64,000 nt of DNA from an uncultured Deferribacteres bacterium (lineage in GTDB: Bacteria; Zhuqueibacterota; JdFR-76; DREG01). Under the pieces are notes generated by a model. That model made no database searches. It was not told the origin of the DNA and saw nothing but the letters and a program-made list of their open reading frames with translations. The stretch's first letter is position 1. Every line of letters begins with the position of its first letter. Below, one piece after another: positions 31,444 through 56,993 of this stretch. A program made the translations under genes and the position numbers. The stretch covers positions 1-64,000 of the forward strand of contig CAJVYQ010000009.1 in assembly GCA_913009825.1 (NCBI GenBank), given 5' to 3'.

Positions 31444-32664
31444 TTAAACAAAGTTATGATACAATTCCAGAGCATACTTTAGTGGATTTGCATAGAAATC
31501 CTCAGAGGTCATTTCGAGAGAAAGACTCTTTGTTGCCTTCTTGACCACAGGATTTGTCCCGGCAAATTTTTTTATGATCTCCGCATGAGGTTTTAACGAT
31601 CCATCGCGCCCGACCAAACCGAAGAAACGTTCATGATGGGATTGGTCACAGGGAGGCAGATGGTACAAACTTGGGTGATAATCAGCAAAACACCAAATTA
31701 GAGCGCCTAATGCGCCAACTTCAACTAATTTCGGCAGAACCTGCTCAATGTAATAGGCAAAATCATCTTCAGACGTCATAAATATTTTGTAATCTCTGCC
31801 GTAACCAATCCATTCCCAGGTAGTCGACTTCTTGCCGTCAGGAACAGTGCAGCCGCCGAACTCTTCCATTAAAACGGGCTTCCCACACAGGGCTGATGTC
31901 AAAGCACAAGTGTAAGGGACAAAATTCGGATCCAGCGGACTAATTGCCCAGTCTACATACATGGGATAAGCATGCATAACAGCCATGTCGACTTCATTAA
32001 AGATATCAGATACGCGAAGGCCATTATCTTCAAACAAATTTTCTGTGTGTAAACCACAGGTAACGGAATGATTGGGATCGATCTCCTTGATAAGGTTGAA
32101 CATATTTTTTGCCCAAATCCGGCCATTTTCAGCGTCTTTGGGCCAGGCCATAAAATCCGGTTCATTCCCCAGATTCCAAATCCCAATTCCAGGATGGTCA
32201 TAAAAATTTGACACCACTTTCTGTAAGAGTAACTTCTCCGCGTCCAACACCAATCGATCAACATAAGGATTTAAATAGCCGCAATCCACGATCTGTTCTC
32301 CTGAAACAACCTGTCGCACACTTTTGGGTTTAGGCAGATGTTTTTGCAGCATCCATTCAGGAACCCAGTTGGGTCCGCTCATGTGTCCCGTAAAAAAAGT
32401 AACATCAAGCTGCAACTTATTCTCATTCGCTATATTGCAAACTTTTTCAAAATTATTTAAACAAGCCGAACTTACATCATTGGGTTTGGGTTGCCAATCA
32501 TCCCATAACAGAAAGATTCGAACCAGGTTCAAACCAATTGAACGGATAATCTCGAATTCTTCTTTTACTTCGTTTTCATCAAAATTGGCCCACCAATACA
32601 TCGCTTTTTTGCGCGGCCAGTAATTTACACCTAAAATGAAAGGTCGTGGCTTCTTTTTCTTCAT
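31444..32664 (-). CDS. GH5-like (clan GH-A) glycoside hydrolase, possible beta-mannanase/mannosidase
   Basis: A 406-residue TIM barrel. The start ATG at 32664 is favoured by AGGTGA just upstream, which overlaps the stop of the preceding GH130 gene. Motifs: GVNYWPRKKAMYWWANFDEN at the N-terminus, IRSIGLNLVRIFLLWDDWQP, WNLGNEPDFMAWP (acid/base Glu in NEP) and GKPVLMEEFGG (nucleophile Glu). No signal peptide, so it probably acts in the cytoplasm on imported oligosaccharides. Clan GH-A is clear; the family (GH5, or a near relative) and mannan specificity are inferred from GH130 neighbours. Confidence 0.75.
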   Translation of the reverse strand: MKKKKPRPFILGVNYWPRKKAMYWWANFDENEVKEEFEIIRSIGLNLVRIFLLWDDWQPKPNDVSSACLNNFEKVCNIANENKLQLDVTFFTGHMSGPNWVPEWMLQKHLPKPKSVRQVVSGEQIVDCGYLNPYVDRLVLDAEKLLLQKVVSNFYDHPGIGIWNLGNEPDFMAWPKDAENGRIWAKNMFNLIKEIDPNHSVTCGLHTENLFEDNGLRVSDIFNEVDMAVMHAYPMYVDWAISPLDPNFVPYTCALTSALCGKPVLMEEFGGCTVPDGKKSTTWEWIGYGRDYKIFMTSEDDFAYYIEQVLPKLVEVGALGALIWCFADYHPSLYHLPPCDQSHHERFFGLVGRDGSLKPHAEIIKKFAGTNPVVKKATKSLSLEMTSEDFYANPLKYALELYHNFV

Positions 32665-32670
32665 TTTCAC

Positions 32671-34119
32671 CTAAGACGTAAGTTCATTTAACAATTCACT
32701 AAGATTAACTGTAGCAAATGTACTGGCGTAATCAGATATTCCGTAAGGTAAAATCAATTCATTTTCATGAATTAATGATCCGCAGCTATAAACAACGTTT
32801 GGAACATAACCTTCGCGCTCATTTATATTTGAGCTTAGTAAAGGTTCTTTTAATCGGCCAATTACTTTCGTTGGATCATTTAAATCAAGTAAAAATGCTC
32901 CTATTACATACTTTCGCATCGGGCCAACTCCATGGCTTAGTACAAGCCATCCTGCTTCAGTTTCAATTGGTGATCCGCAATTACCTAACTGGACAAATTC
33001 CCATGGAAATGTAGGTTTTAAAATATTTATTTTTGAATACCAAAACTGGATTTGCTCTGAAAACATGATAAAAATGTTTTCATTGTCTTGTCTTGAAATC
33101 ATTGCGTATAGACCATTAATTTTGCGCGGGAATAATGCCATTCCCTTATTTTGAACCTCCGGACCATTTAATGTGCTAATTTTGAATGTAACAAAGTCTT
33201 CCGTCTCTAAAAGTTGTGGAAGAATTACTTGCCCATCGTAAGCTGTATATAAGGCGTAATACTTGACTCGATTATATTCATCATGAAACTCAACAAAACG
33301 GGCATCTTCTATCCCGTTACGTTCTGCTGGTGAATAGGGGAAAATAACCCTTTCGGAAATATCTTGTTTTGAGGAGTAAGATATTTCATAATTGGATTTT
33401 GCCAAAGATAAAATCCCTCGTGCTACAATTTTGTTCTTACCATCTCTACTCCTACTTTGGCGGAGTGCATAATTAATATTTTCCTCTAAATCTTTTAATG
33501 TAAAATATTCTTCCAGTCCAGCTAAAATCCGGGATGAAAAATCATTATCAAGTTCCAATTCGATGAGCTTCTTTTCAAACAAAGCTTTGTCGTATGAATG
33601 ATCAGGATGGACATCCGGAACTGTAACATAGGGTGACGGTTCTTCTATTGTAATAACATTATCTTTATCAATCATTCCGGATCGAAATGTAATCGAAGAT
33701 ATGTGCCCTTCCCCGGTTGCCCTTAAACTAACAATGACACGTTGACAACCTTCAGGCAAGTTCGATTGATCAGGATGCCAAACAATAGAAGGATTAAATA
33801 GCGCCGCGGATTCTAAGGAATATTCCTGAGTAAAGTATGCTCCAATCAGCATTTTTCGCTCTTCACTCAGCAATTGATCTGTAATTAAGAATTCTTGTAA
33901 TTGGTTAAATCTTTTGAGAAAAAATTGTTGTAACTTGTGATGTCTGTCTTTGAATTCCGACAACACTTTTTTGAATTCTTTCTTAACTTCATTCTCAGTG
34001 AGCGACATAATTCTTGCGATTATTTTAAGAGTCCGGCCTTCTCCATAAGGAGTAAAAGGTTGAAATAAAACTCTCTTGTAGTCAGACCTTAAGACAATCC
34101 CGGTTCTTTTAACATTCAT
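32671..34119 (-). CDS. GH130-family protein, large form (mannoside phosphorylase or mannosidase)
   Basis: A 482-residue five-bladed propeller of GH130 type with an extra helical N-terminus of about 110 residues (SLTENEVKKEFKKVLSEFKD, then HHKLQQFFLKRFNQ). The catalytic-type Asp is in GIEDARFVEF, compared with EDPRI in the third copy. The phosphate-site region reads NKGMALFPRKING and ISRQDNENIFIMFS. YVPNVVYSCG and LSHGVGPM match the blade motifs. No signal peptide. GH130 enzymes cleave beta-mannosides by phosphorolysis or, in some subfamilies, hydrolysis; which applies is open. It is followed by the GH5-like gene with overlap of signals. Confidence 0.8.
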   Translation of the reverse strand: MNVKRTGIVLRSDYKRVLFQPFTPYGEGRTLKIIARIMSLTENEVKKEFKKVLSEFKDRHHKLQQFFLKRFNQLQEFLITDQLLSEERKMLIGAYFTQEYSLESAALFNPSIVWHPDQSNLPEGCQRVIVSLRATGEGHISSITFRSGMIDKDNVITIEEPSPYVTVPDVHPDHSYDKALFEKKLIELELDNDFSSRILAGLEEYFTLKDLEENINYALRQSRSRDGKNKIVARGILSLAKSNYEISYSSKQDISERVIFPYSPAERNGIEDARFVEFHDEYNRVKYYALYTAYDGQVILPQLLETEDFVTFKISTLNGPEVQNKGMALFPRKINGLYAMISRQDNENIFIMFSEQIQFWYSKINILKPTFPWEFVQLGNCGSPIETEAGWLVLSHGVGPMRKYVIGAFLLDLNDPTKVIGRLKEPLLSSNINEREGYVPNVVYSCGSLIHENELILPYGISDYASTFATVNLSELLNELTS

Positions 34120-34380: not shown

Positions 34381-35322
34381 TTACAACGCCGGCCTGGTAT
34401 TTGTCAGACATAATTGTACCAGGTCATCGATCAGTGCAGTGCCGGCGCACATGACGGTATCAGCGCCGCCCCAATATATTTTTACCATCCCGTCATCTTC
34501 AGGAACAGCACCACAGGTAAAAACAACGTTGGGCACATAACCATTTACCTCCCAGGGATCTTCTGGCTGCAGTATCCACTGATCGGAAACGCCAATGGTT
34601 TTTGCCGGATCATTAAGATCGTGCAGAGCAATGCCAAGGCGATACACCGCCCCGGCCATAGTTTTAAAGACTCCATGGTAAATATGCAGCCAGCCTTTGT
34701 TGGTTTTGAATGGCGGTGCGCCGGGTCCGATTTTCATTTCATCCCAGTGATAAGGAACCGGCTTCATAATCACCCGTGAATCGCCCCAATGAACCAGGTC
34801 GGGGGAATAGGAAATCCAGATTGACCAGGGTGATATTTCGGAATGCGGCCGGTCAAGACGCACATACCGGCCAGCGAACTTTTCAGGAAAAATGACGACA
34901 TTGCGCAGGTCGGCCTGGGTAATAAGCGCAATGCGTTCAACTTTTTCAAAATCCCTGGTGCGTGCAAGGGCAATCCGAACGCCGTGACGGGAATATGCGC
35001 TGTAGGTAAGCAGGTAGTCGTCCTCAACCGGACAGATTCTAAGGTCCTCAATTCCGAACTCTTCATATTCCGCAAAAATGTTGTCTGTTGCGGGTGTGAG
35101 AAAGGGTTTGGGATGAACCGTAAAGGAAAATCCATCTTCGCTATCGGCTCTGCCAATGATAGAGCGCCCGTTGTGTCTGTGCGATCTGAAAAGCATTATG
35201 TAACGGCCGTTGTGCTTGACAATACCGGCATTATGAACCGTAGCTACAGGATATGGGACATCTTCCTTAGTGAGAATAGGATTTTTAGGGTAACGTGTTA
35301 TTATCTTATTTTTAGTAGTCAT
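34381..35322 (-). CDS. GH130 phosphorylase-type protein (mannosyl-glycoside phosphorylase)
   Basis: A 313-residue GH130 protein. The start ATG 35322 (MTTKNKIITRYPKNPIL) is chosen over an upstream TTG. The NPIL entry motif, EFGIEDLRI (Asp93 in the catalytic position), DLRNVVIFPEKF (Arg140-Asn141), DRPHS (157-161) and IYHGVFKTMAGAVYRLG are visible. Adjacent Arg-Asn and the later Arg/His match the phosphate-binding set described for mannosyl-glucose and mannooligosaccharide phosphorylases, so phosphorolysis giving mannose-1-phosphate is likely. Leu replaces the usual Pro after Glu-Asp. Cytoplasmic. It has no clear ribosome site. Confidence 0.87.
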   Translation of the reverse strand: MTTKNKIITRYPKNPILTKEDVPYPVATVHNAGIVKHNGRYIMLFRSHRHNGRSIIGRADSEDGFSFTVHPKPFLTPATDNIFAEYEEFGIEDLRICPVEDDYLLTYSAYSRHGVRIALARTRDFEKVERIALITQADLRNVVIFPEKFAGRYVRLDRPHSEISPWSIWISYSPDLVHWGDSRVIMKPVPYHWDEMKIGPGAPPFKTNKGWLHIYHGVFKTMAGAVYRLGIALHDLNDPAKTIGVSDQWILQPEDPWEVNGYVPNVVFTCGAVPEDDGMVKIYWGGADTVMCAGTALIDDLVQLCLTNTRPAL

Positions 35323-35648
35323 AATTGTTAACAAAAGTTAAAAGTTAGTAGTAAACAGTGACTAAGTAGTGTCCGTCCGAATTTGTCATTCCCGCATGTT
35401 TTTAGCGGGAATCCATTGCTGTCCTCAAGTAGATTCCCTGTCTGCAACAGGCATGCGGCTTAAAGATTGCCTGCCTGTTGCAGACAGGCCGGAATGACAA
35501 TATCGTGGATATTTTCGGACAAACACTAAGTACATGAATTAATAAACAGGAGACCTTATAAACTCCAAAATAATCTGCAATGAAAACGCTTGCCAAAACT
35601 TAAGATACATCAAACCGGTATTCACTTTATTTCATTTCTCTATCTGTT
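35323..35648. repeat. Spacer holding a family B element
   Basis: Interrupts the mannoside locus. Positions 35363-35533 are a MITE-like element (next entry). The remainder is AT-rich without a gene. The insertion may separate the GH130 pair downstream from the GT4 genes upstream transcriptionally. Confidence 0.6.
35363..35533. repeat. MITE-like element, family B copy 4
   Basis: Left end AGTGTCCGTCCGAATTTG, right end ATTTTCGGACAAACACT. The interior TCATTCCCGCATG, then GCGGGAATCCATTGCTG, AGATTCCCTGTCTGC and GGAATGACAATATCG matches copy 1 in reverse and copy 5 directly. Confidence 0.75.
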
Positions 35649-37001
35649 TCAGGATCTTCCGAAATCATCTTCAAAACGCTCAATATCATCCTCCCCAAAA
35701 TAATCGCCGGTTTGTACTTCGATGAAACGAATATTTTTAGAACCCGGATTAGCGATTCGATGCCGGGCGCCTTTGGGAATGTCTATGGACTGCCCCGGCG
35801 CAAGTACAAATGTTTTATCGTTGAGAGTTATTTGGGCCCGACCGTTAATGATATACCAGTGTTCTGACCGGTGTTGGTGCCGCTGTAAGCTGAGACGCTT
35901 GTGGGGAAAAACAACTATCTCTTTACTTTTATATACATCATCGTCCGCCAGGATTTTATAATAGCCCCAGGGGCGGTGGTCTTCACGTTTCGTTTTTTCA
36001 AGAACCGTTTTGTAGACCTGAATATATTCTGCAACCATGCGGTCGATTGTGAAAAACTGTTCAACATGGCGGCGGCAGCATGCCCGGTCAATATCATCGA
36101 CATGTGCAACAGCGTCTATTGCCTCACTTACTGTTTGTACGAGAAAACCGTTTTTGCCGTTTTCTATAATTTCAGGCATACTGCCCCGGTTAAAGGCGAT
36201 CACAGGGGTCCCGCAGGCCATGGATTCTACAACAGACAGGCCAAAAGGCTCATTAAAATTTATGGGATGCAGAAGCGAGTATGCCTTACCAAGCAGTTGG
36301 TTACGCTGAACCGGCCTGACGCTGCCGATATAGACCGCATTGTAGTTGTCCAGGTGGGGTTCAATCTGCCGGTGATAGTAGTCTTCATCCTGAATGATTC
36401 CCGCCAATATTAGCTTTTTGTTGCAGGCTCCGGCAATTTCAATGGCCTCTCTGGCGCCCTTGTCAGGGTGAATACGCCCGAAAAAAAGCAAGTAATCATC
36501 CGGTTCGGATTGAAAATCAAACAGCTTTATATCTATGCCGTGACGGACGGTTTTGATATAATCAAGATCCGGTGAACGATCGGCATCGCTGATGGAAACA
36601 TAGAATTCTTTGCGGTTGTATTTTTTGAAAACCGGTAATATTCCGGGCGATGAAAAGCCATGAATGGTGGTGACGACAGGAGTGGTGACAAGTCCGGTAT
36701 AAGTCAAAGGCAAAAAGTCAAAATTATTATGGATAAGATCAAACTCATCGGCATGCTCAAAAAGTTCCGAAATGTGCAGGCACTCCCATACTTTTGGTAT
36801 AATGGAACGGTCTTCTTCATAGCCCCGCGCACAAACGGCATGCAGCTTACCGCTTGTTTCCGAGTCACCGGTTGCGAATAGCGTAACATTATAACCACGA
36901 GAGACCAATCCCTCGGTCAACAGAGAGACCACGCTTTCCCATGGCCCGTAGTGCCGCGGCGGCGTGCGCCATGCAATTGGTGAAAGCATTGCAATATGCA
37001 T
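35649..37001 (-). CDS. GT4 glycosyltransferase fused to a type II mannose-6-phosphate isomerase-like cupin
   Basis: A 450-residue fusion. Residues 1 to about 335 are a GT-B fold GT4 transferase: HYGPWESVVSLLTEGLVSRG, FGRIHPDKGA, and the donor-site NEPFGLSVVESMACGTPVIA. Residues 343-448 are a cupin of the AlgA/ManC C-terminal type: RPWGYYKIL, then RLSLQRHQHRSEHWYIINGR with metal ligands at about His375, His377, Glu380 or His381 and His414, and PGQSIDIPKGARHRI. It may link mannose-6-phosphate/fructose-6-phosphate conversion or sugar sensing to mannosyl transfer. It starts two bases after the stop of the upstream GT4 gene, so the two are coupled. Cytoplasmic. Confidence 0.85.
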   Translation of the reverse strand: MHIAMLSPIAWRTPPRHYGPWESVVSLLTEGLVSRGYNVTLFATGDSETSGKLHAVCARGYEEDRSIIPKVWECLHISELFEHADEFDLIHNNFDFLPLTYTGLVTTPVVTTIHGFSSPGILPVFKKYNRKEFYVSISDADRSPDLDYIKTVRHGIDIKLFDFQSEPDDYLLFFGRIHPDKGAREAIEIAGACNKKLILAGIIQDEDYYHRQIEPHLDNYNAVYIGSVRPVQRNQLLGKAYSLLHPINFNEPFGLSVVESMACGTPVIAFNRGSMPEIIENGKNGFLVQTVSEAIDAVAHVDDIDRACCRRHVEQFFTIDRMVAEYIQVYKTVLEKTKREDHRPWGYYKILADDDVYKSKEIVVFPHKRLSLQRHQHRSEHWYIINGRAQITLNDKTFVLAPGQSIDIPKGARHRIANPGSKNIRFIEVQTGDYFGEDDIERFEDDFGRS

Positions 37002-37003
37002 GA

Positions 37004-39319
37004 TTAACTCTTTACCTTATCCGTTTGATTGGATGGTTGTTTTAAAATTTCGTCGGCATAAAGCTTTTGCAATGTCATAAGCGAGAGCAGCCAGGCAAGC
37101 GTCGATTCGGCGCCTTCATTTTGGTTAATACCATCAGCCATCAACCCATCGCGGCAGCCACCGGTCTTAGCATCATAGAGCGGCATATTCAAATCGTTGT
37201 GTCCGAGAAACCATTGAAAGCACATGACCGCATTGTCGATCCATGTTTTATCCCGCGTGATATTAAAAGCTTCGACACAAGCTTCGATCGTGGCATCAGC
37301 TTCGATGGGCTGCTGGTCGAAACGGGCCTTGGCACCGCCTTGTTCATACCATCCGTTATTGCCGATCGGTACAAAGTGACCATTTTCGGTCTGGATGTTG
37401 AGCAACCACTTGAGGGCTCTTAGCCCCATTTCGATCATATCACTGCGCTGCATCCATTGTCCGGACAGGAGCAGTGCATGGGGCAGCTTGCCGTTGGCAT
37501 AGTATAAACTATTTTCAAGCCATATCCAGTTTTTTGATGCATTATTCTTGAACTGCTTAAAAAGTCTGTCTGCAAGATCTTCCCGCACCCTGTGCACTTC
37601 ATGGTCGCCTGAAAATTTTTGCAGATAGGCATGAATGCCCACCAAGGTAAAAGCGATAGCACGGGGCGAATTAAAGTGTTCCACTGCTTTCACCGCCTGG
37701 TTGAAAAGTGTCGTGCTCATTGCCAACTGGCCGGGATTGTCAAGAAAAGCCACAGCTTTGCCGAGGCTCCAGAGCGCTCTGCCGTGAGCATCCTCGGACC
37801 CTACATCTTCAGTCCATTGCCGGGCATAGTTCATAAAATTACGAAACCGTCCGTTCTCAACATTAAAGGCATATCGCAGAAAGCTGAGATACAGGCTGCT
37901 GAAAGAATCGAAGTCCACAGTATCTGTGATTAAATATTTCCTACCCATGGCAACAACCATTAACGCTCTGGCATTATCATCGGTACAGTAACCATGGAAA
38001 CGATCGGGGATGGTGTGGGTGGCATGTTGCAAAATGCCCGTATCATCGGTAAGGGTTTTCAGGTGATCAAGCTTCATTTCCGGAAGTTCAAAATTTGTGA
38101 TGGATTTGATGTTTTCAACATATAAGTGCCGCGGGCGGGGGTGCTGAGAACGGTTTCTCTTCCCTTCACTGAAAACCTCGAGATATTTCCGGGATACCTC
38201 TTTCCAGATCGCATCGCGACAGAACGTATACGCTTTTTTACGAATGGTATGCCGGTTGACATCATTGTCCAGAAGGTAGACAATTTGTTCCGCCACGGCA
38301 TCAGGGTTTTTGAATGGAACAATTATACCCCTTCCTTCGGCAAGCATCTCAGTTGCATACCAGTACGGAGTTGAAATGACGGCTTTGCCGGTCCCCATGG
38401 CATAGGCCAGCGTTCCGGAAGTAATCTGGGCTTCTTCAAGATAGGGGGTTATATAGATATCAGCGGTACCGAGAAACTCACATAATTCTTTCAGCTCCAC
38501 AAACCGGTTTTGAAAAATGACATGATCACTGATATTAAGTTTGCGTACAAGCTGCTGCAGGCTGATACGGTATTCTTCTCCATGTGCCTTCAATATATTC
38601 GGATGGGTTGCTCCCAAGACAATGTATGTGACATCAGGATGTTTTCTAATAACGGACGGAAGCGCCTGCAGCACATTTTCAATTCCCTTATTGGGTGAAA
38701 GCAAGCCGAATGTGAGAAGCACCTTTTTACCTTCCACACCGAACTGATCTTTGTAGAAGTTGGGATCAATAAAAGGCGTATCCGGAATGCCGTGATGGAT
38801 AAACGCAATTTTCTCCTCCGGAACGGCATAGATATCTTTGAGGAAATCAAAAGCCTTCCAGCTCATTACGATAAGTTTGTCGGACAGATCACACAGCTTG
38901 CGCATGACTTCACGATATTCCGGGGCGGGATCTTTCAGAACCGTATGCAGTGTTGTTACCACCGGCATGCGCAGATTGGCGAGAAGTTTCAGGATATGGC
39001 TGCCAGCCGGACCGCCAAAAATACCGTACTCATGCTGAACACAGACAATATCAATCTGGCTGATATTGAGAAATTCCGATGCGACATTGTAATCGGTAAG
39101 TTTATTCTGGTTGATCTCAAATCGCACTTTTTCCGGATATGGATATCCCTCGGGTTTATCATTCATGACAACCGCCCTACAGTTAATGTCGGGCGCTTCT
39201 ATCGATAAAGCCTCAACAAGATCAGTTGTAAATGTTGCAATACCGCACCGGCGGGGTAAATAGTTACCGATTACAGCAACCGAATTAATTCCCTCATAAT
39301 ACTGAATAACAGATGCCAT
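37004..39319 (-). CDS. GT4 glycosyltransferase fused to an (alpha/alpha)6-type glycosidase-like domain
   Basis: A 771-residue protein. Residues 1-385 are a GT4 transferase: YLPRRCGIATFTTDLVEAL, HEYGIFGG, FGLLSPNKG (204-212) and TPYLEEAQITSGTLAYAMG with TPYW and ATEML. Residues about 415-760 are helical repeats with CTDDNARALMVV (Asp447, Asp448, Arg451) and YDAKTGGCRDGLMADGINQN-EGAEST, like (alpha/alpha)6 barrels. The same two signatures occur in the lipoprotein encoded at 40431-41909. GAGGAT five bases before the ATG sets the start. GT and glycosidase-like parts on one chain suggest synthesis with trimming or a sugar-binding platform. Cytoplasmic. Confidence 0.83.
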   Translation of the reverse strand: MASVIQYYEGINSVAVIGNYLPRRCGIATFTTDLVEALSIEAPDINCRAVVMNDKPEGYPYPEKVRFEINQNKLTDYNVASEFLNISQIDIVCVQHEYGIFGGPAGSHILKLLANLRMPVVTTLHTVLKDPAPEYREVMRKLCDLSDKLIVMSWKAFDFLKDIYAVPEEKIAFIHHGIPDTPFIDPNFYKDQFGVEGKKVLLTFGLLSPNKGIENVLQALPSVIRKHPDVTYIVLGATHPNILKAHGEEYRISLQQLVRKLNISDHVIFQNRFVELKELCEFLGTADIYITPYLEEAQITSGTLAYAMGTGKAVISTPYWYATEMLAEGRGIIVPFKNPDAVAEQIVYLLDNDVNRHTIRKKAYTFCRDAIWKEVSRKYLEVFSEGKRNRSQHPRPRHLYVENIKSITNFELPEMKLDHLKTLTDDTGILQHATHTIPDRFHGYCTDDNARALMVVAMGRKYLITDTVDFDSFSSLYLSFLRYAFNVENGRFRNFMNYARQWTEDVGSEDAHGRALWSLGKAVAFLDNPGQLAMSTTLFNQAVKAVEHFNSPRAIAFTLVGIHAYLQKFSGDHEVHRVREDLADRLFKQFKNNASKNWIWLENSLYYANGKLPHALLLSGQWMQRSDMIEMGLRALKWLLNIQTENGHFVPIGNNGWYEQGGAKARFDQQPIEADATIEACVEAFNITRDKTWIDNAVMCFQWFLGHNDLNMPLYDAKTGGCRDGLMADGINQNEGAESTLAWLLSLMTLQKLYADEILKQPSNQTDKVKS

Positions 39320-39421
39320 ATTATCCTCACATACAGAAAAAAACCATATTTTAGGTCATTTCAACTTCATTAAACGTCGTAGTTAATTTTTATTTTTTTT
39401 CTTCATCACTAATTTCACACG

Positions 39422-40393
39422 CTACTCTAATTCCGGCTCTTTTACTTTTGGGCACTGTAAAATATAATCCCTTAAATCTTTTATATGAGCAATTGCCAGG
39501 GCTATTGAAGTGTCGGCGGAACCGTAATACAGCCTGACTTGATCATTTTCCAGAATCCAGCCACAAGGAAAAACTACATTATTCACGTCACCCTGTCTTT
39601 CATAGTTTTCACTGGGTCCCATAACCCATTCATTCGCCCGGCGAATTAGTTTCGTAGGATCGTTTAAATCAAGAAGGGCTAAACCAAGACGATACAACGC
39701 TCCTTCGGCAGTCTTTTTGACACCATGATACAAAACAAGCCAGCCTTCCGGGATTCGTAAAGGCGGCGGCGAAATGCCTACTTTCCCTGCATCCCACCAG
39801 GCTCCGGTTCGCGCCATGAGCAGGATTCGGTGTTTTCCCCAATGAACCAAATCCGGTGATAATGCAATCCAAATGTGATGGCCCGACTCCATTATGGAAC
39901 CGGCAGGTCGATGAATCATTGCCCATTGATTATTGAATCGCACAGGGAACAACGCTGCATCCTTGTTTTCAGGGGGTAGAACTGCGCCAATTTTATCAAA
40001 GGTTTTAAAATCCGCTGTCTTGGCTAATGAAACAAGCGGACCGCCTCTGGAAAAAGCTGTATAAGTAATGTAATACTCTTTTAATTCGGGGATATAGGTA
40101 ATTCTTGGATCCTCGACGCCCCAAATTTCTTCAGGATATTTTTCGGGTTCAGAAAAAAGAGCAGGTTTGGATTCAATTTTCCAATTTTTAACGCCATCTG
40201 TGCTTTTTGCTATCGCAAGATGAGACAACCCGGTTCGATCTTCCACACGCACGAGCAGTACAGTTTGTCCATTCAATAATGTCGCGCCACAATTAAAAGC
40301 TGAGTTTACCGGATATGGCCAATCGTTAATTGTGATTATTGGATTCCCAGGGTGCCTTTTGAAAAGTTCCCGGAAAGAGGTCTTTACACGCAT
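39422..40393 (-). CDS. GH130 phosphorylase-type protein (mannooligosaccharide/mannosyl-GlcNAc type)
   Basis: A 323-residue GH130 protein with canonical motifs: HPGNPIIT (entry), GVEDPRITYI (Asp95), ENKDAALFPVRF, IHRPAGSIMESGHHIWIALS and LYHGVKKTAEGALYRLG. The NKDAALFP form is that of the GH130 branch with mannosyl-N-acetylglucosamine and beta-mannooligosaccharide phosphorylases, whereas the second copy has RNVVIFP, so the three GH130 proteins in the locus should have different substrates. GGAG about ten bases before the ATG. No signal peptide, so it works on imported sugars in the cytoplasm. Confidence 0.88.
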   Translation of the reverse strand: MRVKTSFRELFKRHPGNPIITINDWPYPVNSAFNCGATLLNGQTVLLVRVEDRTGLSHLAIAKSTDGVKNWKIESKPALFSEPEKYPEEIWGVEDPRITYIPELKEYYITYTAFSRGGPLVSLAKTADFKTFDKIGAVLPPENKDAALFPVRFNNQWAMIHRPAGSIMESGHHIWIALSPDLVHWGKHRILLMARTGAWWDAGKVGISPPPLRIPEGWLVLYHGVKKTAEGALYRLGLALLDLNDPTKLIRRANEWVMGPSENYERQGDVNNVVFPCGWILENDQVRLYYGSADTSIALAIAHIKDLRDYILQCPKVKEPELE

Positions 40394-40430
40394 AAAACCA
40401 ATTCTCCTTAAAATATCTTTGGTTATCCAT

Positions 40431-41909
40431 TCAATTGGTCTCGATAAAATGTTGCCACTTTATTTCCGACATTAGATAAAAGGTACGGCTTTTCCATGAA
40501 TAAACCAATACATATCTTCTGCGATCCTTTAATCCATAAATTCTAAATTGACAAAATCCAAAATTTGATAATTGAATATTCTTAGTCGCTTGAATAAGTT
40601 TTGCTTGGAGAAAAGGTTTGGCCAACGGTTCTTGTTCTATTTCTATGAGAGTGAGAAGAGCCTCAATCGTTGATTCTGCTCCGGCATTCAGATTAATTTC
40701 ATTTTCATTCACGATTCCATCATAGCATCGCCCAGTGCGTGAATCGTACATTGCCTTTTTTGCCGGATTGTTGCCGAAAAGCCAAGAAGCTAATAAACCG
40801 GCCAATCGTGCTTGACGTTGTTCGCCGGTTACCTGATAATTTTTTAACGCCGCTAAAGCCGCACAGCGAATACCATAAGCAATTTGGGGAAACTGCATCT
40901 CGTCTTCCCGGGATAGCCGAAATTCATGTAACCAATCTTTTAGTATCAATCGTGGATAAAATTGCTGTACCTCTTTTCGCGCTGAATTCAACCATAAATT
41001 ATTTTTCAATTGCGGAGTTAATAGACTCATACTAACAGACTGAGAATTTCCCCATGCGTGCCATAAATCAGGGAATGACAGAAATGCACCGGGAAATTTT
41101 GATTCCCGGTCACACTGCATGCTGACAATTCCTTCGGCGAGTTGACAGGCGTAATCCTTCAATTCGGCATCTTCATCAGATTGTAAGTAGGAAACAATTG
41201 CTTGAAGCAGAACTGCTGTGGCATCGGCAGCATAGAGATTAACTAACCATTTAGGGTAGAATCTTTCATTAACCTTTTCAGTTTTGTGATAATTCTTTAA
41301 AAGATTTCTAATTGGATTTTTACACCTTAAAAAATGCTGTTTTAATTGTTGAGCAAATATGCGGTCTTTATTTTGAAGAATTCTGTACCCTTCTGCTAAC
41401 GCCCAGTAACCTCGAACTGCCCACCAACCAAAGGATTTAAAACTAGTGTTTCCGCTTCTATTAATTTCGTAACTCTTATCAATAAAATTAAAAAACTCAC
41501 CGTCATTCGTTTGCATTTTCACAACAAATTTCAAATAGTAACGTGCCCACTGCAGCGAACCTTCATCTTTTGTCCACTCATAATGATGTAATCTAAGAAC
41601 AGCGGCTCGCGCAACATCATCCACACAAGCGATTCCCTCTTTATTAGCGTCAACCCATTTATATTCCGGATATTCCGAATAAATGTGGACAATTCCGACT
41701 GAATCTCCTTGAAATTCGATAATTTCTGAAAGTTGTTCGAGATGAGTAAAATTTATTAATGATTGATTTGATGAAGAACAATTTAAAAGTGAAACATGAA
41801 AAATAAAAAATGAAACGATTAAAAAGAAATATTTCACGACTTTCAGGTTAAATATATTTCCCTTTATATTTGAATTTGCACATTTTAATTCTAATTTAGA
41901 ACTTTTCAT
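40431..41909 (-). CDS. Lipoprotein with an (alpha/alpha)6-type domain, paralogous to the GT4-fused domain
   Basis: A 492-residue predicted lipoprotein: hydrophobic segment VVKYFFLIVSFFIFHVSLLN then Cys44. The mature part is helical, with IACVDDVARAAVLRLHHYEW (Asp97, Asp98, Arg101) and YDSRTGRCYDGIVNENEINL then NAGAEST near the C-terminus. These match DDNARA and YDAKTGGCRDG...EGAEST in the GT4 fusion at 37004-39319. It may be a periplasmic or surface glycosidase or lyase. The last permease gene stops three bases upstream, so coupling is likely. An export version and a cytoplasmic version of one domain in one locus is unusual. Confidence 0.72.
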   Translation of the reverse strand: MKSSKLELKCANSNIKGNIFNLKVVKYFFLIVSFFIFHVSLLNCSSSNQSLINFTHLEQLSEIIEFQGDSVGIVHIYSEYPEYKWVDANKEGIACVDDVARAAVLRLHHYEWTKDEGSLQWARYYLKFVVKMQTNDGEFFNFIDKSYEINRSGNTSFKSFGWWAVRGYWALAEGYRILQNKDRIFAQQLKQHFLRCKNPIRNLLKNYHKTEKVNERFYPKWLVNLYAADATAVLLQAIVSYLQSDEDAELKDYACQLAEGIVSMQCDRESKFPGAFLSFPDLWHAWGNSQSVSMSLLTPQLKNNLWLNSARKEVQQFYPRLILKDWLHEFRLSREDEMQFPQIAYGIRCAALAALKNYQVTGEQRQARLAGLLASWLFGNNPAKKAMYDSRTGRCYDGIVNENEINLNAGAESTIEALLTLIEIEQEPLAKPFLQAKLIQATKNIQLSNFGFCQFRIYGLKDRRRYVLVYSWKSRTFYLMSEIKWQHFIETN

Positions 41910-41912: not shown

Positions 41913-42725
41913 TTACGATTTTAGTCCCGATGTTGCCATACTTTCAATAAAATAACGCTGGAAAAAGCTGTAGGCAACTACAATTGGCAGCGCTAATAAA
42001 GTTGCCGATGCCAGTTTCAAACCAAGCAATCCTTCCGCACGGCCGCCCACGGCAAACAGAGTAACCAGTTGCGGCATAGTCATTAAATCCTGATTACGGA
42101 TGACGATGATTGGCCAGAGCACGTCATTCCAGATAGTCATAAAGGTTAATATCCCGACTGTAACCAGAGTGGGAACCGACAACGGCCACAAGATGCGAAA
42201 CAGGATATGCATCTCCGAGCAGCCGTCGATTCTGGCGGCATCGATTAAATCCTGAGGAATAGTTAAAAAATGTTGGCGAAACAGAATAATTCCAAAAGCG
42301 CTCATGGTAAACGGAATAATAAGGGCTAAATAAGTATTCACCCAATGGAATTTTACCATGAGTAAATATTGGGGAATTAATGTGATCTGAAACGGCAGCA
42401 TCATAGTGAAAAGGATGAGAAAAAATATTGCGTTTCTACCGCGAAATTTTAATCGGGAAAGGGCATACCCTGCCATCGAACAGAAAGCCAACACACCGGC
42501 CGTTACACTGACAGAAACCAAAAGACTGTTAAAAAATGCCCGTAGAATAGGTATCTTGCGAAAAACTGCGATGTAGTTTTCCAGAGTTACTCGAGCAGGC
42601 AAGATGCTTAAGGCACCAATATCCGCTTCGGGACGAAATGTAGTGACAACCATCCAAAGAAAAGGATAAAAGAAAAAAACAGCGAAAATGATTAATGCTG
42701 AATATAACAGAAGGCGCTTAGTCAA
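41913..42725 (-). CDS. Carbohydrate ABC transporter permease, MalG type
   Basis: Inner-membrane subunit with six helices and the EAA loop DAARIDGCSEMHILFRILWP that contacts the ATPase. The TTG at 42725 is chosen since GGAG lies five bases before it, giving 270 residues starting TKRLLLYSALIIFAVFFFYP, as usual for this family. A longer form from TTG 42776 adds 17 charged residues. It works with the next permease and the solute-binding lipoprotein encoded just upstream. No ATP-binding subunit is present in the locus. Confidence 0.9.
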   Translation of the reverse strand: MTKRLLLYSALIIFAVFFFYPFLWMVVTTFRPEADIGALSILPARVTLENYIAVFRKIPILRAFFNSLLVSVSVTAGVLAFCSMAGYALSRLKFRGRNAIFFLILFTMMLPFQITLIPQYLLMVKFHWVNTYLALIIPFTMSAFGIILFRQHFLTIPQDLIDAARIDGCSEMHILFRILWPLSVPTLVTVGILTFMTIWNDVLWPIIVIRNQDLMTMPQLVTLFAVGGRAEGLLGLKLASATLLALPIVVAYSFFQRYFIESMATSGLKS

Positions 42726-42776
42726 ATATTCTCCAAAATTTTTTCGTTCAAACTCTATTTCCCGGTAGCTGGGCAA

Positions 42777-42889
42777 TCATAAATGAAGAGTACTCTGATA
42801 ATTCTATCACACAGAGAAATACTGAGAAAATCTCTGCGATCCTCCGTGTCTGCTTTATGAATCTCCGTGTAAAAAACACCGTAATTTTT
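42777..42889. repeat. CTCCGTGT-type dispersed string between the two permease genes
   Basis: CACAGAGAAATACTGAGAAA, then TCTCTGCGATCCTCCGTGTC, then ATCTCCGTGT. Similar strings lie at about 45135-45205 (CACAGAGATTTTTTCCGTGC, CTTCGTGTTTCTCCGTGT), 58478-58500 and 63690-63715. No gene. Confidence 0.5.
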
Positions 42890-43750
42890 TTAATAACCAA
42901 CATCCCGTTCCAATACTTTTCGTTGAATCAAAACCACGGTAAACAAAATTATGGCAAACACAAAACCCAGTGTGGCGGCATAACCCATGTGGTAAAAATT
43001 GAATGCTTGTTTATAAATATACAAAACCGCAGATAACGTGCTGTTCATAGGGCCTCCTCCAGTCATAATGTAGGGTTCAATAAACAATGAAAATCCGCTA
43101 ATGGTTGACAGGATAACCACCATAAAAAAAGTTGAGTTGATCATGGGTAGTGTAATTTTTCTGAATTTTTGCCATTCGGATGCTCCTTCAATATCAGCCG
43201 CCTCATACATACTTTTTGGCACACTTTGTAAACCAACCAGAAACAAAACCACATACAGCCCAACATTTTTCCAGGTGGCCATAATCGCGATACTTGGCAT
43301 CGCTAACTTAGGACTGGTTAACCATGCAACTCTTGGCAATCCAATAGACTGAATGAGCTGATTTAACAAGCCGCTGTTTAGATTGTATAATTGATTCCAC
43401 AGCATTGTAATCACAACACCAGACACAACCACGGGTAAAAAGTAAACCGCTCTGAAGAATCCACGAAATTTTATCTTACGATTTAAAATCACAGCCAAAA
43501 GAAGCGCAACAATGATTTGCAACGGGATATGAATGATCAGGAAATAGAACGTATTAAACAAGGCTTTGAAAAATAGTTTATCCTGAAAAACTTTTGTAAA
43601 ATTTTGCAGACCTACAAATTTCAAAGGAGAAACCACATCCCACTGGTGAAACAGCAGCACCAGTGAAAAGACAATTGGAAATGCCAAAAACACAGCAAAA
43701 TGAATTAAATAAGGAGAAAGAAATAACCAGCCTATTCGGTTCTGTTTCAA
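42890..43750 (-). CDS. Carbohydrate ABC transporter permease, MalF type
   Basis: A 286-residue permease starting at TTG 43750 (AAGGATC upstream), opening with GWLFLSPYLIHFAVFLAFPI and carrying the EAA loop EAADIEGASEWQKFRKITLP. The pattern is that of the first permease of CUT1-family oligosaccharide importers. Eleven bases separate it from the solute-binding gene. It would form the channel with the MalG-type subunit and borrow a shared ATPase from elsewhere. Confidence 0.9.
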   Translation of the reverse strand: MKQNRIGWLFLSPYLIHFAVFLAFPIVFSLVLLFHQWDVVSPLKFVGLQNFTKVFQDKLFFKALFNTFYFLIIHIPLQIIVALLLAVILNRKIKFRGFFRAVYFLPVVVSGVVITMLWNQLYNLNSGLLNQLIQSIGLPRVAWLTSPKLAMPSIAIMATWKNVGLYVVLFLVGLQSVPKSMYEAADIEGASEWQKFRKITLPMINSTFFMVVILSTISGFSLFIEPYIMTGGGPMNSTLSAVLYIYKQAFNFYHMGYAATLGFVFAIILFTVVLIQRKVLERDVGY

Positions 43751-43761
43751 AGCAGTGATCC

Positions 43762-45060
43762 TTACTGTAAAACCAGTTTCATTCGATTTATCATGTCTTC
43801 AACTGCCTTCTCTGGAGTTTTAGCCTGATAAAGCACACAAGCTTCAAATTCTTGAGATATGGCATCGAACAATTCTTTTAAGACGGGTGTGGAATCAGTA
43901 GCACGGGTATAATTTGCCTGCTCGGCAAACCGGATCATCAGAGGATTTTTTTTAAAGTAACTTTTGAACAAAGTGTCGGATAAAATTCCTCTTCTATATG
44001 GTAACTGACTTGTTAAATCCAACAAATAAAAATCACTCTGTTTCCTTATGAGAAATTGCGCGAACTTCCATGATTCTTTTGGAAATTTTGTGGTTGAAAA
44101 GATCACAATACTTTTGGGATCAGCATAGGTGTAAGACGGCCCGTTTTGATTGTCTGGTACCGGCAGGGAAGAAAAGTCATAACGAAATCCTTCTGGCTTC
44201 AATTTCTCGGCGTGAGTAATTTCCCAGGGACCCGTAATTCGTGAAGCCACATCACCGTAAAGAAAGACATCGTGCGAACCGCTTGGGACAAGGTATGGGA
44301 AATAGTCATTTTTAAAACAGCTTTGAAAAAATGAAAACACTTTGATTGCAGCCTTTTTATCGACAGCCAATCGTCCTTTTTTCAAGAAAGTTTTACCACC
44401 CGAAGCCGAAATATAAAAAGGATAAAAATCGAATAACCGGTCACGCCAGCGGGCGCGAATATCGGTTACTCCGATCCAACGATCGTTATGACCGTTCCCA
44501 TCACGGTCGATACTAATTTTATCGGCCGCCTGCAAAAATTCGGAATACGAAGAGGGGAATGATGAATAACCTGCTTCCTCAAAGATCGTTTTATTGTAAA
44601 TCATCAGAATTGGATTTGTCTTCCACAACAGTTGATAAACGCCTCCATCCGGGGAGCGCATTTGTTCAATAACATCGTCTGAGAAGCGTTCTGCAGCCAC
44701 AGAATCGAAATCAGAAAATTGATCGAGTTGCAAAAGTTTGTTTGCCCTCACATAAAATTCAACGTCGCCTGCCCACATGTTTGAATAAATATCCGGCGTG
44801 GTTTTACCAACTACAGCCGCTAAAATCATTTCTTCGCTGGATTCCCCTTCCGGAACGGGTTGATATCGGACTGGAATATCAGGGTGTAGCTGATTCCACT
44901 CTGAAACAATTGCTTTTGCCAGATTAATCTCATACTGGTTGTTGGCACACCAGTAGGTAATTTGGATTTGCCCGGCATCATTATGGGAATGATTACTGCA
45001 GTTGAAAGAGCAAAGTAAAAGAAATAAAAAACCGGAATATTTATTTTTGAACATTTTCAT
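43762..45060 (-). CDS. Extracellular sugar-binding lipoprotein (ABC importer component)
   Basis: A 432-residue solute-binding protein from the ATG at 45060: signal FLFLLLCSFNC (Cys near 21, loose lipobox), then QIQITYWCANNQYEINLAKA, the usual start of CUT1 sugar-binding proteins. Typical features follow: VGKTTPDIYSNMWAGDVEFY, VYQLLWKTNPILMIYNKTIF and DVASRITGPWEITHAEK. It delivers oligosaccharides in the periplasm to the two permeases encoded next. The upstream 155 bases to the T9SS gene include a CTCCGTGT-type string, so an internal promoter is possible. Confidence 0.87.
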   Translation of the reverse strand: MKMFKNKYSGFLFLLLCSFNCSNHSHNDAGQIQITYWCANNQYEINLAKAIVSEWNQLHPDIPVRYQPVPEGESSEEMILAAVVGKTTPDIYSNMWAGDVEFYVRANKLLQLDQFSDFDSVAAERFSDDVIEQMRSPDGGVYQLLWKTNPILMIYNKTIFEEAGYSSFPSSYSEFLQAADKISIDRDGNGHNDRWIGVTDIRARWRDRLFDFYPFYISASGGKTFLKKGRLAVDKKAAIKVFSFFQSCFKNDYFPYLVPSGSHDVFLYGDVASRITGPWEITHAEKLKPEGFRYDFSSLPVPDNQNGPSYTYADPKSIVIFSTTKFPKESWKFAQFLIRKQSDFYLLDLTSQLPYRRGILSDTLFKSYFKKNPLMIRFAEQANYTRATDSTPVLKELFDAISQEFEACVLYQAKTPEKAVEDMINRMKLVLQ

Positions 45061-45102
45061 AAAGTTAAAGTCTAATTGATCACAGAGTCTGATTCTATTC
45101 AC

Positions 45103-45215: not shown

Positions 45216-48200
45216 CTACTTCATCAATATTAGCTTTTTTCTTTGGGAAAATTCGTCTGCGGTAATCTCATAAAAATAGATTCCGGAAGGAACAGGGCTG
45301 CCAAATTGATTCTCTCCGTTCCATTCAATTGCATAAATTCCAGGTGATTGCTGTTGATCAACAAGTCGAATAAGCTGTTTTCCCAGCATATCATAAATGA
45401 CTAAATGCACTTTCCCGCTCTTTTTAAGATGATAAATGATGTTCGTGCTTTGATTGAATGGATTGGGAAAATTCTGTGCCAGATTATTTTGTTCAGGTAA
45501 GTGATTCCTCTCATCAGCTTGCGTTGAGGTTACTATGGAATAGAGATCAAATATTTCCAGATCGGTTAAAGCAGTGTTGTAAATGCGCACATCATCCAGG
45601 ACGCCATTAAAATTGTAATTTGGATTATTTGGCAGCACCTGGCCGATGGTCAGATCAAGAGACGTCGGTAAAATTTTCCCCGACCAGTTTGAAGATGCGT
45701 CCGGTTTTCCATCAATAAAAATATCAAACTTGCTGCCATCAAATCTCGCTGCGATGTAGTAAAAATGATGGGTGACAAATTTGGTTTTAGAATCCAGGTC
45801 TTTGATACCTGCGGTGGTTTTAACCGTCCAGCGCATACCTTTGCCGGTAATGGAAAGTTTCCAACGGTTTTCCCAATTGCCGTGAGAAAGCGGGTAAGCC
45901 TCTCTGGAAAAAAATTTGTTAATTTTCATATCGAATGCAACTGTAATTCCATCCTGAAAATTCAAACTGGGGTGATTGTTAACTTTGATAAAATCATTAG
46001 AGCCATCGAAATAAAAAGCGCTGTTAGTGTTTCCCAAACGATCTGCTGTTAAAGAAGCGCCCAAAACCGAGCCGTGGTTGGCAAAGCCGCTCTCATCATT
46101 GGCATTGCCATTGAAAGGGAAATAAACAACTAACTTACCCACAGAAACTCCAATGCTGTCCGTTACTCCACAGGAATAATCATCATAAACAGTACAATAA
46201 ATTTTATAATAGCCTGGATTTTGTGGGGCAGTCCAGTAGACAGTTGCGCCTGTTCCTGACAAGATTCCGCTTTCACTTGACCATGAAAAATACAATGTAT
46301 CGCCATCGGGGTCTTTGACGTTACAAAAAAGTGAAACACTCCCGGCAGGATCAATTTGTTTGGGAGTGGCGGTAAGACTTAAAATTTGTGGTTTCTGGTT
46401 GTCGATTACTGCAATAACAAGACTGTCTCTGGCAACACCGCCGTTTCCGTCATCAACTGAACAGAAGAGATTAAAAGTCCCTGCGGAATCGGGGGCAGTC
46501 CAAATCACCGGAGAACCGTTCCCAATAAAAGCACCATCTGAAGCATTCCAATTGTAAGTGAGTGGATTATTTTCCCGGTCAAAAGCCGTGCAGTAAATTG
46601 CTACATTTTCACCGCATAAGATTAAGCTTTTTAAGGCGGTCAGGCTTTTAATTCTGGGCAGGTAGTTCTGCACGGGCTGGCCGGAAGAGTAATCGGCCAC
46701 AACTCCATTCACCAACATTTTGTCCAGGTCATATTCAATATTTGCTCCGGAAGGAAGAAGAACCGGTAAAACAGCCTGATTAGCAGGGATTTTAAAATCA
46801 GCAATTCCGCTAACGTTTGTTTTCAAAAATTGATTGGAGACGGCATCGTACAAATCATAAACTCCCGTTCCCACATCAATTTGTAAGTTCTTTTCTTCAC
46901 CATAAGGATTAAAATAGAGATAAGTAGAAAATGTATCTTTTTGAAAATAGTCGGTTTTTCGGGTGTTCAGTTTGAGGATCATTTTTACATTTGTGGTATC
47001 GATGATTCCTCCGAAAATACCCACATGAGAAGAGCCATATAATGCCAGATTGGTTTGCGCCCAGCCGCTGCGCATAGCGTCACCTGTGGCAAAGGGTCTA
47101 ATTGTATTAGTCTGATTATATTCCCATTCTTTTAAGGCTTCATAAGCAATGTAGGAATTGGGATCATAAGTATGCGACCAGTTTTCACTATCCTGATTAT
47201 CATCCGGCAAAAAGTTAGCATAAAATAACCGGGAAGCATTGGCCAGATTTAATATCCATTTGCCAATTGCCCGTGCGAAACGATCATCATACCGGACCAT
47301 CGGCGCTAAAGCACCAGCCATTTCAAAACCATTCATAATAAATGCATAACCTCTGCTCTGAGCTTCGCCAATTAAACCGTAACAGTCATAATCACCCCAT
47401 CTGCCCAGCGTGGCGCCCCAACCTCGCACATTATCGTCAGGTTCAAAACACCAGTTCAGCATCTTTTCGATGTTGTAATTTGTGCCCAATTCGGCATTCA
47501 TTCTTGCTGCCGTATAAACGCCGTAAGGGAGTTGTAGTTCATAAGAAGGATTTTTGCTTAATCCATTCAGAAATTCCAGGCACCATTCCGCACCAATTCT
47601 ATACTTTCTTTCTCCAGTTTGGATGAAAGCGTTGTAAAGAATCCAGGCTATCGCTCCAGCCGCTTCAGGCTCTTTTACTCCGGATTCCAGCGGTGTCATG
47701 GGTGAAAGTTTCCAGGCTCTGTAATTCATAGATGGTTTTTTCCACGGCGTCGTACTTCCGCCCATCACGGAAACCGCTTCGAGCCAGCGGTCTGCTACGG
47801 TAGTGAATTGATAAGCAAAATCACCCGCTTTTGGATATAGATTATAAAGCTGATAGAAAAACAGGTTAGGCATAGTATCGTACCACCAGTCGCTTCCGCT
47901 TGATGCAACGGTATTGTTCAGATAGACATTTTCTTCCGGCCGTCGGTTGAAAAATTCTTCGCACATCAGAACCCAGTCGTTGCTATTTTGGTTACTTTTA
48001 TCGATTCCAACCAGAGATGCGCCAATGACAGCAGGGAGTAAGTTGATAGCCTCTGCGCCTGATGGAGGATTTATACCAACATAAGAAGGCAGGCCAAAAC
48101 CGTCATGATTTGGATAATTAGTGGTGTTTGAATTAAGCCATGCTAAAGGCAAAAATTGTCCTGTTCGATTCAAATCGAAAACGAGGGAATCATAGCCACG

Positions 48201-48359
48201 GGCTACCAGTTTCCAATCCCGTATTTTATAAGGAAATGGGGTATTGGGCATTTGTTCAATTCTGGTGATATTGATTTGCTGGGCGACTAATAATTGTATA
48301 TTTGAAAATGAGAAGAAAATTAAAATCGTAAATAAGCGCCAGTTATTTTTCAACGTCAC
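45216..48359 (-). CDS. Multidomain T9SS-secreted protein with a helical catalytic-like N-terminus, Ig-like repeats and LamG
   Basis: A 1047-residue exported protein. Signal LFTILIFFSFSNIQLLVAQ. Residues about 30-480 are helix-rich with many Trp, Asp and Tyr (WYDTMPNLFFYQLYNLYP, EPEAAGAIAWILYNAF, YDDRFARAIGKWILNLANAS, DNQDSENWSHTYDPN), like an (alpha/alpha)6 barrel but not a family I can name. Two Ig/PKD-like repeats follow (NPLTYNWNASDGAF and GDTLYFSWSSESGIL), then a LamG domain (ADRLGNTNSAFYFDGSNDFI) and a type IX C-terminal domain (QNFPNPFNQST ... GIYFYEITADEFSQRKKLIL). The start is GTG 48359 or, better spaced from GAGAGG, TTG 48353. Probable cell-surface glycan-active enzyme. Confidence 0.75.
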   Translation of the reverse strand: MTLKNNWRLFTILIFFSFSNIQLLVAQQINITRIEQMPNTPFPYKIRDWKLVARGYDSLVFDLNRTGQFLPLAWLNSNTTNYPNHDGFGLPSYVGINPPSGAEAINLLPAVIGASLVGIDKSNQNSNDWVLMCEEFFNRRPEENVYLNNTVASSGSDWWYDTMPNLFFYQLYNLYPKAGDFAYQFTTVADRWLEAVSVMGGSTTPWKKPSMNYRAWKLSPMTPLESGVKEPEAAGAIAWILYNAFIQTGERKYRIGAEWCLEFLNGLSKNPSYELQLPYGVYTAARMNAELGTNYNIEKMLNWCFEPDDNVRGWGATLGRWGDYDCYGLIGEAQSRGYAFIMNGFEMAGALAPMVRYDDRFARAIGKWILNLANASRLFYANFLPDDNQDSENWSHTYDPNSYIAYEALKEWEYNQTNTIRPFATGDAMRSGWAQTNLALYGSSHVGIFGGIIDTTNVKMILKLNTRKTDYFQKDTFSTYLYFNPYGEEKNLQIDVGTGVYDLYDAVSNQFLKTNVSGIADFKIPANQAVLPVLLPSGANIEYDLDKMLVNGVVADYSSGQPVQNYLPRIKSLTALKSLILCGENVAIYCTAFDRENNPLTYNWNASDGAFIGNGSPVIWTAPDSAGTFNLFCSVDDGNGGVARDSLVIAVIDNQKPQILSLTATPKQIDPAGSVSLFCNVKDPDGDTLYFSWSSESGILSGTGATVYWTAPQNPGYYKIYCTVYDDYSCGVTDSIGVSVGKLVVYFPFNGNANDESGFANHGSVLGASLTADRLGNTNSAFYFDGSNDFIKVNNHPSLNFQDGITVAFDMKINKFFSREAYPLSHGNWENRWKLSITGKGMRWTVKTTAGIKDLDSKTKFVTHHFYYIAARFDGSKFDIFIDGKPDASSNWSGKILPTSLDLTIGQVLPNNPNYNFNGVLDDVRIYNTALTDLEIFDLYSIVTSTQADERNHLPEQNNLAQNFPNPFNQSTNIIYHLKKSGKVHLVIYDMLGKQLIRLVDQQQSPGIYAIEWNGENQFGSPVPSGIYFYEITADEFSQRKKLILMK

Positions 48360-48419
48360 AACCTCTCATAGAAAACCCAATGAAATAACCGCATTAAAAA
48401 GAAGCACCAAAAATCAAAC

Positions 48420-49445
48420 TTAAAAAACCATCCTCAAAGTAATTCGCTGAGTGTTCTGTAATCTGCCAAAATCAGCATAAGCATAATCTAAACAAACCTT
48501 CATATTTCCTAAAAATCGCTGGGTGAAACCTGCCCCAACTGTTAAACCTTCCTCGGTGTCCCTTTGAAACAGATTGTGATACCCACCTCTAAACACAAAC
48601 ATCTCATGAAAAGCGTATTCTGCACCTATATTTATGCTTTCTGTGTTGTCACTGGGATGCATGGCATCCACAGCTATGGTCAATCGATGATCGTCTGATT
48701 TATATGGTTCCATGGCCAGGCCGAATTGGAATGTAAGAGGAAGCGGCCAGGAGTCGGTATGGAGATCAGCAAAAATACGATCATTATTTCCGAGTTTGTT
48801 AGGATCGATGTCATGATAAACCAACAGATCTTTGCCATCCATTCGCATATCGGTTCCGAAATTTGAGAGTACTGCGCCAATTCGCATTCCATGTAAACCG
48901 GTTGTGAAAATTGTTCCGATATCTAGTGCAAATCCATGAGCGGTTTCTTTCCAGATATTTTGTTGAATGTAGCGCCCGGAAAAGCCGATGGCAAAACGAT
49001 CCGTCAGATTTCTGGCATAACTTAAGGCCAATGACATATCTCCTGCACTAAAAAATTCACCAGTTCCTTCCGGCCTTTCCACGGTCCGAACCATCATGTC
49101 ATCCATGCTAAGTGTAGTAACGCTTACTCCTATACTGCCGAGAGCCCCAAGCGGAAGTGTAATTCCGGCAAAATCGAATTTCATATCTGCGATCCATTCA
49201 GTGTGAACGAGCAGTACTTCCGGCTGTGGCAGTTGGGCGATACCGGCAACATTCCAGTACAAAGCGCTGGCATCGTCCGCTGTACCAACAAAAGCGCCAC
49301 CCATCCCCAAAGCTCGTGCTCCCACACCAATCTCTAGAAAATTAGCGGCCGTTATTCCTGTTTTTGATACATTAGTTACTAGTTGAGCATTTGATGTGGA
49401 AAATATCAGACTAAGAATAAATATTATTGCAAATAGTCTCTTCAT
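48420..49445 (-). CDS. PorV/PorQ-family outer-membrane beta-barrel
   Basis: A 341-residue barrel. The ATG at 49445 has GGAG seven bases upstream. A signal peptide (LFAIIFILSLIFSTSNAQ) is followed by the PorV hallmark FLEIGVGARALGMGGAFVGT and DDASALYWNVAGIA; the C-terminus RITLRMVF ends in Phe, as in outer-membrane proteins. PorV shuttles T9SS cargo to the surface attachment complex in Bacteroidota. Here it sits between the Asp-rich protein and the T9SS cargo gene, so it is probably dedicated to this locus. The gap to the preceding gene is about 30 bases. Confidence 0.85.
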   Translation of the reverse strand: MKRLFAIIFILSLIFSTSNAQLVTNVSKTGITAANFLEIGVGARALGMGGAFVGTADDASALYWNVAGIAQLPQPEVLLVHTEWIADMKFDFAGITLPLGALGSIGVSVTTLSMDDMMVRTVERPEGTGEFFSAGDMSLALSYARNLTDRFAIGFSGRYIQQNIWKETAHGFALDIGTIFTTGLHGMRIGAVLSNFGTDMRMDGKDLLVYHDIDPNKLGNNDRIFADLHTDSWPLPLTFQFGLAMEPYKSDDHRLTIAVDAMHPSDNTESINIGAEYAFHEMFVFRGGYHNLFQRDTEEGLTVGAGFTQRFLGNMKVCLDYAYADFGRLQNTQRITLRMVF

Positions 49446-49474
49446 ACTGAACTCCAACAAAATTGGTTTATTTT

Positions 49475-52702: not shown

Positions 52703-52717
52703 TTTCACCTCGAATTA

Positions 52718-56953: not shown

Positions 56954-56993
56954 TGCACTCTCCTTTTTTTGATTTTTATGCAATTATTTACTT

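Follow-up and report, generated by a model that had tools for sequence, protein, structure and literature searches.

The locus described here raises the question whether one (alpha/alpha)6-type domain is used both inside the cell, within a glycosyltransferase fusion, and outside the cytoplasm, as a lipoprotein. The window, i.e., the whole stretch of 64,000 nucleotides that was analysed, contains a gene (37004..39319) for a 771-aa protein lacking an export signal and composed of a GT4-like glycosyltransferase (residues 1-~395) and an (alpha/alpha)6 domain (residues ~412-760; 37007..38116) that has residues in common with the lipoprotein family. A second gene (40431..41909) encodes a 492-aa lipoprotein with the same domain and the lipobox LLNC (Cys44). 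They are separated by a single gene (39422..40393) for a GH130 protein of the beta-mannoside phosphorylase type (PF04041, E 6e-59; best PDB match 1vkd, TM1225). All these genes, like the other features of the locus between 31444 and 58082 discussed below, are on the minus strand. The preliminary description had pointed to two distant strings shared by the proteins, and these were found as described. In the fusion, DDNARA occupies residues 447-452 and YDAKTGGCRDG...GAEST residues 715-740; in the lipoprotein, DDVARA occupies residues 97-102 and YDSRTGRCYDG...GAEST lies near 388-415. The lipobox in one protein and the lack of an export signal in the other are likewise consistent with its assignment of the lipoprotein to the outside and of the fusion to the inside of the cell.

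Homology and fold of the two domains

The matching strings reflect real homology, but the resemblance is not limited to them. BLASTP aligned the C-terminal stretches of the two proteins with E 5e-10 and added a weak collinear piece at DD-ARA. Profile-profile comparison of the fused and exported families covered 329 columns with a probability of 99.7% (E 3.7e-27, ~20% identity; 19 and 20 sequences), and with deeper alignments (24 and 91 sequences) the probability was 99.9% (E 3.5e-34; 329-333 columns over the two comparisons), while the GT4 half, used as a negative control, gave 0.4%. Thus, the similarity extends over the whole domain of ~380 aa, and the C-terminal half of the GT4 fusion and the lipoprotein are confirmed as full-length homologues. 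A chance match of short motifs is ruled out by the same BLASTP and profile values. When the fused domain was searched against the window's own genome, only itself and the lipoprotein were matched.

The model of the lipoprotein (mean pLDDT 91.5, pTM 0.92) had 7TEM as its best structural match (TMq 0.82 / TMt 0.91), followed by cellobiose 2-epimerases, AGE epimerases and GH9. In the model of the GT4 fusion (pLDDT 84.3, pTM 0.56) the first half matched GT4 structures and the second half 7TEM, which appeared at rank 12 among the GT4 structures with TMt 0.70; because of the low pTM, the relative placement of the two fusion domains is uncertain. Both models were built on shallow alignments (19-20 sequences). 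At the sequence level, 7TEM was the sole significant PDB match for either domain, with phmmer E-values of 2e-66 for the lipoprotein (residues 40-438) and 5e-10 for the fused domain. It corresponds to YPO2471, a putative exported protein of the same family as the lipoprotein that, unlike the fusion, has no glycosyltransferase part. No published function of YPO2471/7TEM was found in the open-access literature searched, nor was anything on a beta-1,2-mannanase, and no Pfam or NCBIfam model names either the fused or the exported domain. The modelled structures therefore support the presence of one (alpha/alpha)6-type domain in both proteins, since both match one solved structure; the structural comparison that the preliminary description had suggested did not separate them into different folds.

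Comparison of the two subfamilies revealed 45 columns with a conservation of 90% or more in each of them, where independence would predict 21. In 33 of them the residue is identical, and these 33, which include both quoted strings, lie mostly on the loop face of the barrel. Among them are (fusion/lipoprotein, the latter in the numbering of alignment A2, where the lipoprotein residue equals the A2 number + 44) H432/H31, D447/D53, D448/D54, R451/R57, N494/N97, R514/R122, W600/W235, N609/N244, Q669/Q298, N708/N337, Y715/Y344, D724/D353, N732/N362, N734/N364 and GAES 736-739/366-369. Hence D97, D98 and E412 of the lipoprotein (A2: D53, D54, E368) correspond to D447, D448 and E738 of the fusion. 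Invariant positions made up 36/168 and 51/201 of the loops leading into odd-numbered helices and 0/59 and 1/55 of the opposite loops. In (alpha/alpha)6 enzymes the former loops form the face that holds the active site. Judged from loop topology, both strings are thus placed on the active-site-bearing face and not outside the cleft, and at this level of fold and loop face the idea of different folds or peripheral strings is ruled out. The conserved residues suggest that the probable active site has been retained in both versions.

In a tree of 74 rows the fused and exported domains were reciprocally monophyletic with 100/100 support, and the pair is therefore not a recent duplication; a recent local duplication of one domain is ruled out by this old split. 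The connecting branch is long, ~4 changes per column, and no recent exchange between compartments was seen. Members of the family occur in at least Calditrichota/KSB1, Bacteroidota, Ignavibacteriota, Chloroflexota, Bacillota, Fusobacteriota and Proteobacteria; phage records gave no match. By a simple heuristic, a hydrophobic signal or lipobox was present in 85 of 93 exported-branch ORFs, several of the other eight being truncated or mis-started. Chloroflexota copies of the exported domain carry CBM9, and in a same-family genome a second copy, a T9SS-tailed protein of 1022 aa (L181:10476-13541, minus strand), lies beside a lipoprotein copy, GH130 and a GH2 mannosidase-type protein. As a feature of the window's lipoprotein itself, a C-terminal extension of ~50 residues (40431-40590), not present in its relatives, was modelled as beta strands.

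Gene neighbourhoods and the GT4 half

A sugar ABC importer (two permeases and a solute-binding protein, 41913..45102) lies 3 bp upstream of the lipoprotein gene, and beyond it are T9SS-tailed proteins, a PorV-like protein, a TonB receptor and a LacI regulator (45216..58082), which recur around exported homologues. On the other side, 2 bp from the GT4 fusion, a second GT4 is fused to a ManC-type mannose-6-phosphate isomerase cupin (35649..37001). Next to it are two further GH130 proteins, at 34381..35334 and, with an N-terminal extension, at 32671..34119, and a GH5-like protein (31444..32670) whose nearest solved relatives are a beta-mannanase/beta-mannosidase. With GH130 and an importer nearby, the window resembles a beta-mannoside utilisation cluster in gene content. 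As to linkage, the GH130 sequence points both to beta-1,4 and to beta-1,2: its closest match in the PDB, TM1225, is listed as a beta-1,4 enzyme, and Lin0857, which comes second, as a beta-1,2 enzyme. It should be added that 29929-31443 encodes a 504-aa protein without a family match; its relative in L181, which resembles PPIC-type prolyl isomerases, recurs near exported homologues.

Both branches were found in similar surroundings elsewhere. In a genome-wide scan of the exported branch, GH130 lay within 8 kb in 66 of 80 named loci and importer genes were present in 66 of 80; for the 42 loci flanked by no less than 8 kb in either direction the numbers were 39 (GH130), 38 (importer) and 36 (both). 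GH130 was the immediate neighbour of the GT4 fusion in 12 of 20 phylum relatives and adjoined it in all nine plasmid records (Fusobacteriota, Alphaproteobacteria), several of which also had PMI, ManC or PMM. The neighbourhood counts for both branches take in related genomes and are thus not independent events. For comparison, 25 relatives contain 53 GH130 genes in 103 Mb, so that chance proximity within 3 kb would be ~0.4% per gene. The remaining eight relatives had no GH130 within 1 kb of the fusion, two of them having the fusion beside rhamnosidase or arabinofuranosidase genes, and nothing consistent was found as an alternative partner where GH130 is missing. The proposal that the domain is a mannoside module thus holds as far as gene neighbourhoods tie both copies to beta-mannoside (GH130) metabolism.

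On Sphingobium and Sphingomonas plasmids the gene order is ManC, mannose-6-phosphate isomerase, GT4 fusion, GH130, phosphomannomutase. Three conjugative Sphingomonadaceae plasmids (L178, L184, L185) have the order groES-groEL-manC-PMI-GT4 fusion-GH130-phosphomannomutase-response regulator, a set that is possibly stress-related. A Sphingomonas hankookensis plasmid (L179:9881-16412) contains an exported-domain protein, an importer, GH130 and DUF1861 in a single cluster, and DUF1861 may belong to the same pathway.

The GT4 half of the fusion is recognised by PF00534 (E 2e-19), and GT4 structures of the GT-B fold are its best matches. Within residues 199-306 it has GL...KG for GR...KG and Q-x7-Y (in one case Q-x7-C) for EX7E in all fusions with this region intact, unlike the neighbouring GT4 at 35649-37001, which keeps both canonical motifs. 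That the changed residues are constant speaks for a specialised donor site and against decay.

One may suppose that the two copies act on unrelated substrates and have only an old fold and a structural core in common. The length of the branch between the clades means that substrates may differ, and in most genomes the two are at separate loci. Together with the very old split, this gives the 'same domain' the meaning of one family with probably one chemistry, not of the same enzyme twice. Still, we regard wholly unrelated substrates as unlikely: the conserved identical residues are gathered on the face that putatively holds the active site, both branches are linked to GH130, and the fusion and an exported copy lie in a single cluster in the window and in L071 and, with the genes ordered differently, in L110 and L125.

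Probable function of the family and its known counterparts

A parallel in the placement of carboxylates is offered by GH9. The Asp-Asp pair opens the first barrel helix and the Glu of GAEST the last, which is topologically similar to GH9. The GH9 model PF00759 did not match the window proteins; it matched 6 of 20 exported relatives (best 1.6e-10) and exceeded the cut-off on two exported relatives in the genome search. Profile alignment to GH9 reached 95.4% (E 1.7e-8) over 235 core columns, with Asp-Asp and the last Glu outside them, so that the putative catalytic residues are assigned from their place in the fold; the fused domains barely match the GH9 profile (9%). GH9 shares with the family the (alpha/alpha)6 fold, detectable profile similarity and carboxylates at the first and last barrel helices, and differs in that there is no full-length match and its catalytic signatures (DAGD Asp, NE Glu) are not recovered by alignment.

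For catalysis, mechanism, linkage and physiological direction we infer the following scheme. The domain would represent a hitherto uncharacterised family of (alpha/alpha)6 enzymes, most probably GH9-like glycoside hydrolases, with Asp-Asp and the GAEST Glu as putative catalytic carboxylates and a beta-mannoside as the likely substrate. The exported branch would cleave the glycan outside the cytoplasm; the ABC importer would bring in the fragments, from which GH130 phosphorylases would yield mannose-1-phosphate. The cytoplasmic branch with its atypical GT4 would, together with GH130 and mannose-phosphate enzymes, make, trim or recycle an intracellular mannose glycan. That the family is a GH9-like hydrolase of beta-mannosides outside and inside the cell is our best explanation, and we put the chances for and against it at about equal.

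A different role for the domain, transglycosylation in a mannan synthase module, is suggested by analogy with the GT84-GH189-GH94 system, which has GT84, GH189 and GH94 regions (PMC10834661). It likewise combines a glycosyltransferase, an (alpha/alpha)6 domain and an inverting phosphorylase, a combination found here too, and on Sphingobium plasmids a full mannose-phosphate route adjoins the fusion. The two systems differ, however, in GT family, sugar, phosphorylase family and polypeptide arrangement, and GH189 is not close structurally: GH144/162/189 were absent from the 50 best structural matches. Moreover, given the exported branch, it is unlikely that the whole family serves synthesis only, and we consider this alternative rather improbable.

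A non-catalytic mannoside-binding module has a still smaller chance. The fusion to another catalytic-type domain would suit it, as would the fact that no reported activity of 7TEM was found in the open-access literature searched; yet polar loop residues are densely conserved, the stand-alone exported proteins bear separate CBMs, and the domain is related only to catalytic folds.

In AGE epimerases the catalytic histidines sit in the second half of the barrel. In the family studied here just two histidines are conserved across the two branches, H419/H12 and H432/H31; they precede the barrel or stand where it starts, and none is conserved in both beyond the first barrel helix, so an AGE-type pair is absent. 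The AGE HMM found three other proteins in the window's genome, neither the GT4 fusion nor the lipoprotein, and this search result speaks against an AGE epimerase as the family identity. On two Rhizobium plasmids (L182:3789-8591, L183:3789-8594) a gene for an AGE epimerase/isomerase comes after those for the GT4 fusion and GH130. Although AGE and cellobiose 2-epimerases share the fold, rank next after 7TEM and partner GH130 in known mannan pathways (PMC4264767), an AGE-related epimerase or isomerase (cellobiose 2-epimerase, mannose isomerase) acting on manno-oligosaccharides ahead of phosphorolysis is the least probable of the readings, given these histidines, these HMM hits and a separate AGE protein beside the fusion in Rhizobium.

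Returning to the GH9-like hydrolase, the shared probable active site and the association with mannose-glycan genes indicate that beta-mannoside metabolism probably includes a new enzyme family here. A widespread family that is known from one orphan crystal structure and that neither Pfam nor NCBIfam models now has a testable role and, if the explanation is true, would add a new family to the carbohydrate-active enzymes. In addition, the constant pairing of the GT4-like fusion with GH130, which conjugative plasmids carry too, suggests that bacteria have an intracellular mannose glycan not yet described.

A known counterpart of the locus is found in Thermoanaerobacter, where characterised beta-1,2-mannoside phosphorylases lie amid a similar gene set; the cluster of strain X-514 likewise includes an ABC importer, a GH130 pair, GH5, GT4 and mannose activation genes (PMC4264767). 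It can also be speculated, as a rather improbable extension, that GT4-(alpha/alpha)6 and GH130 form a mobile bacterial module of mannan synthesis and recycling, with a new GT4 subtype (altered donor site), a new (alpha/alpha)6 glycosidase or transglycosylase family and, within that family, an exported branch that consumes the same glycan from the environment. Such a module would be a counterpart, in bacteria, of the mannogen metabolism of Leishmania, or else would itself be a cyclic glucan synthase in a mannose version.
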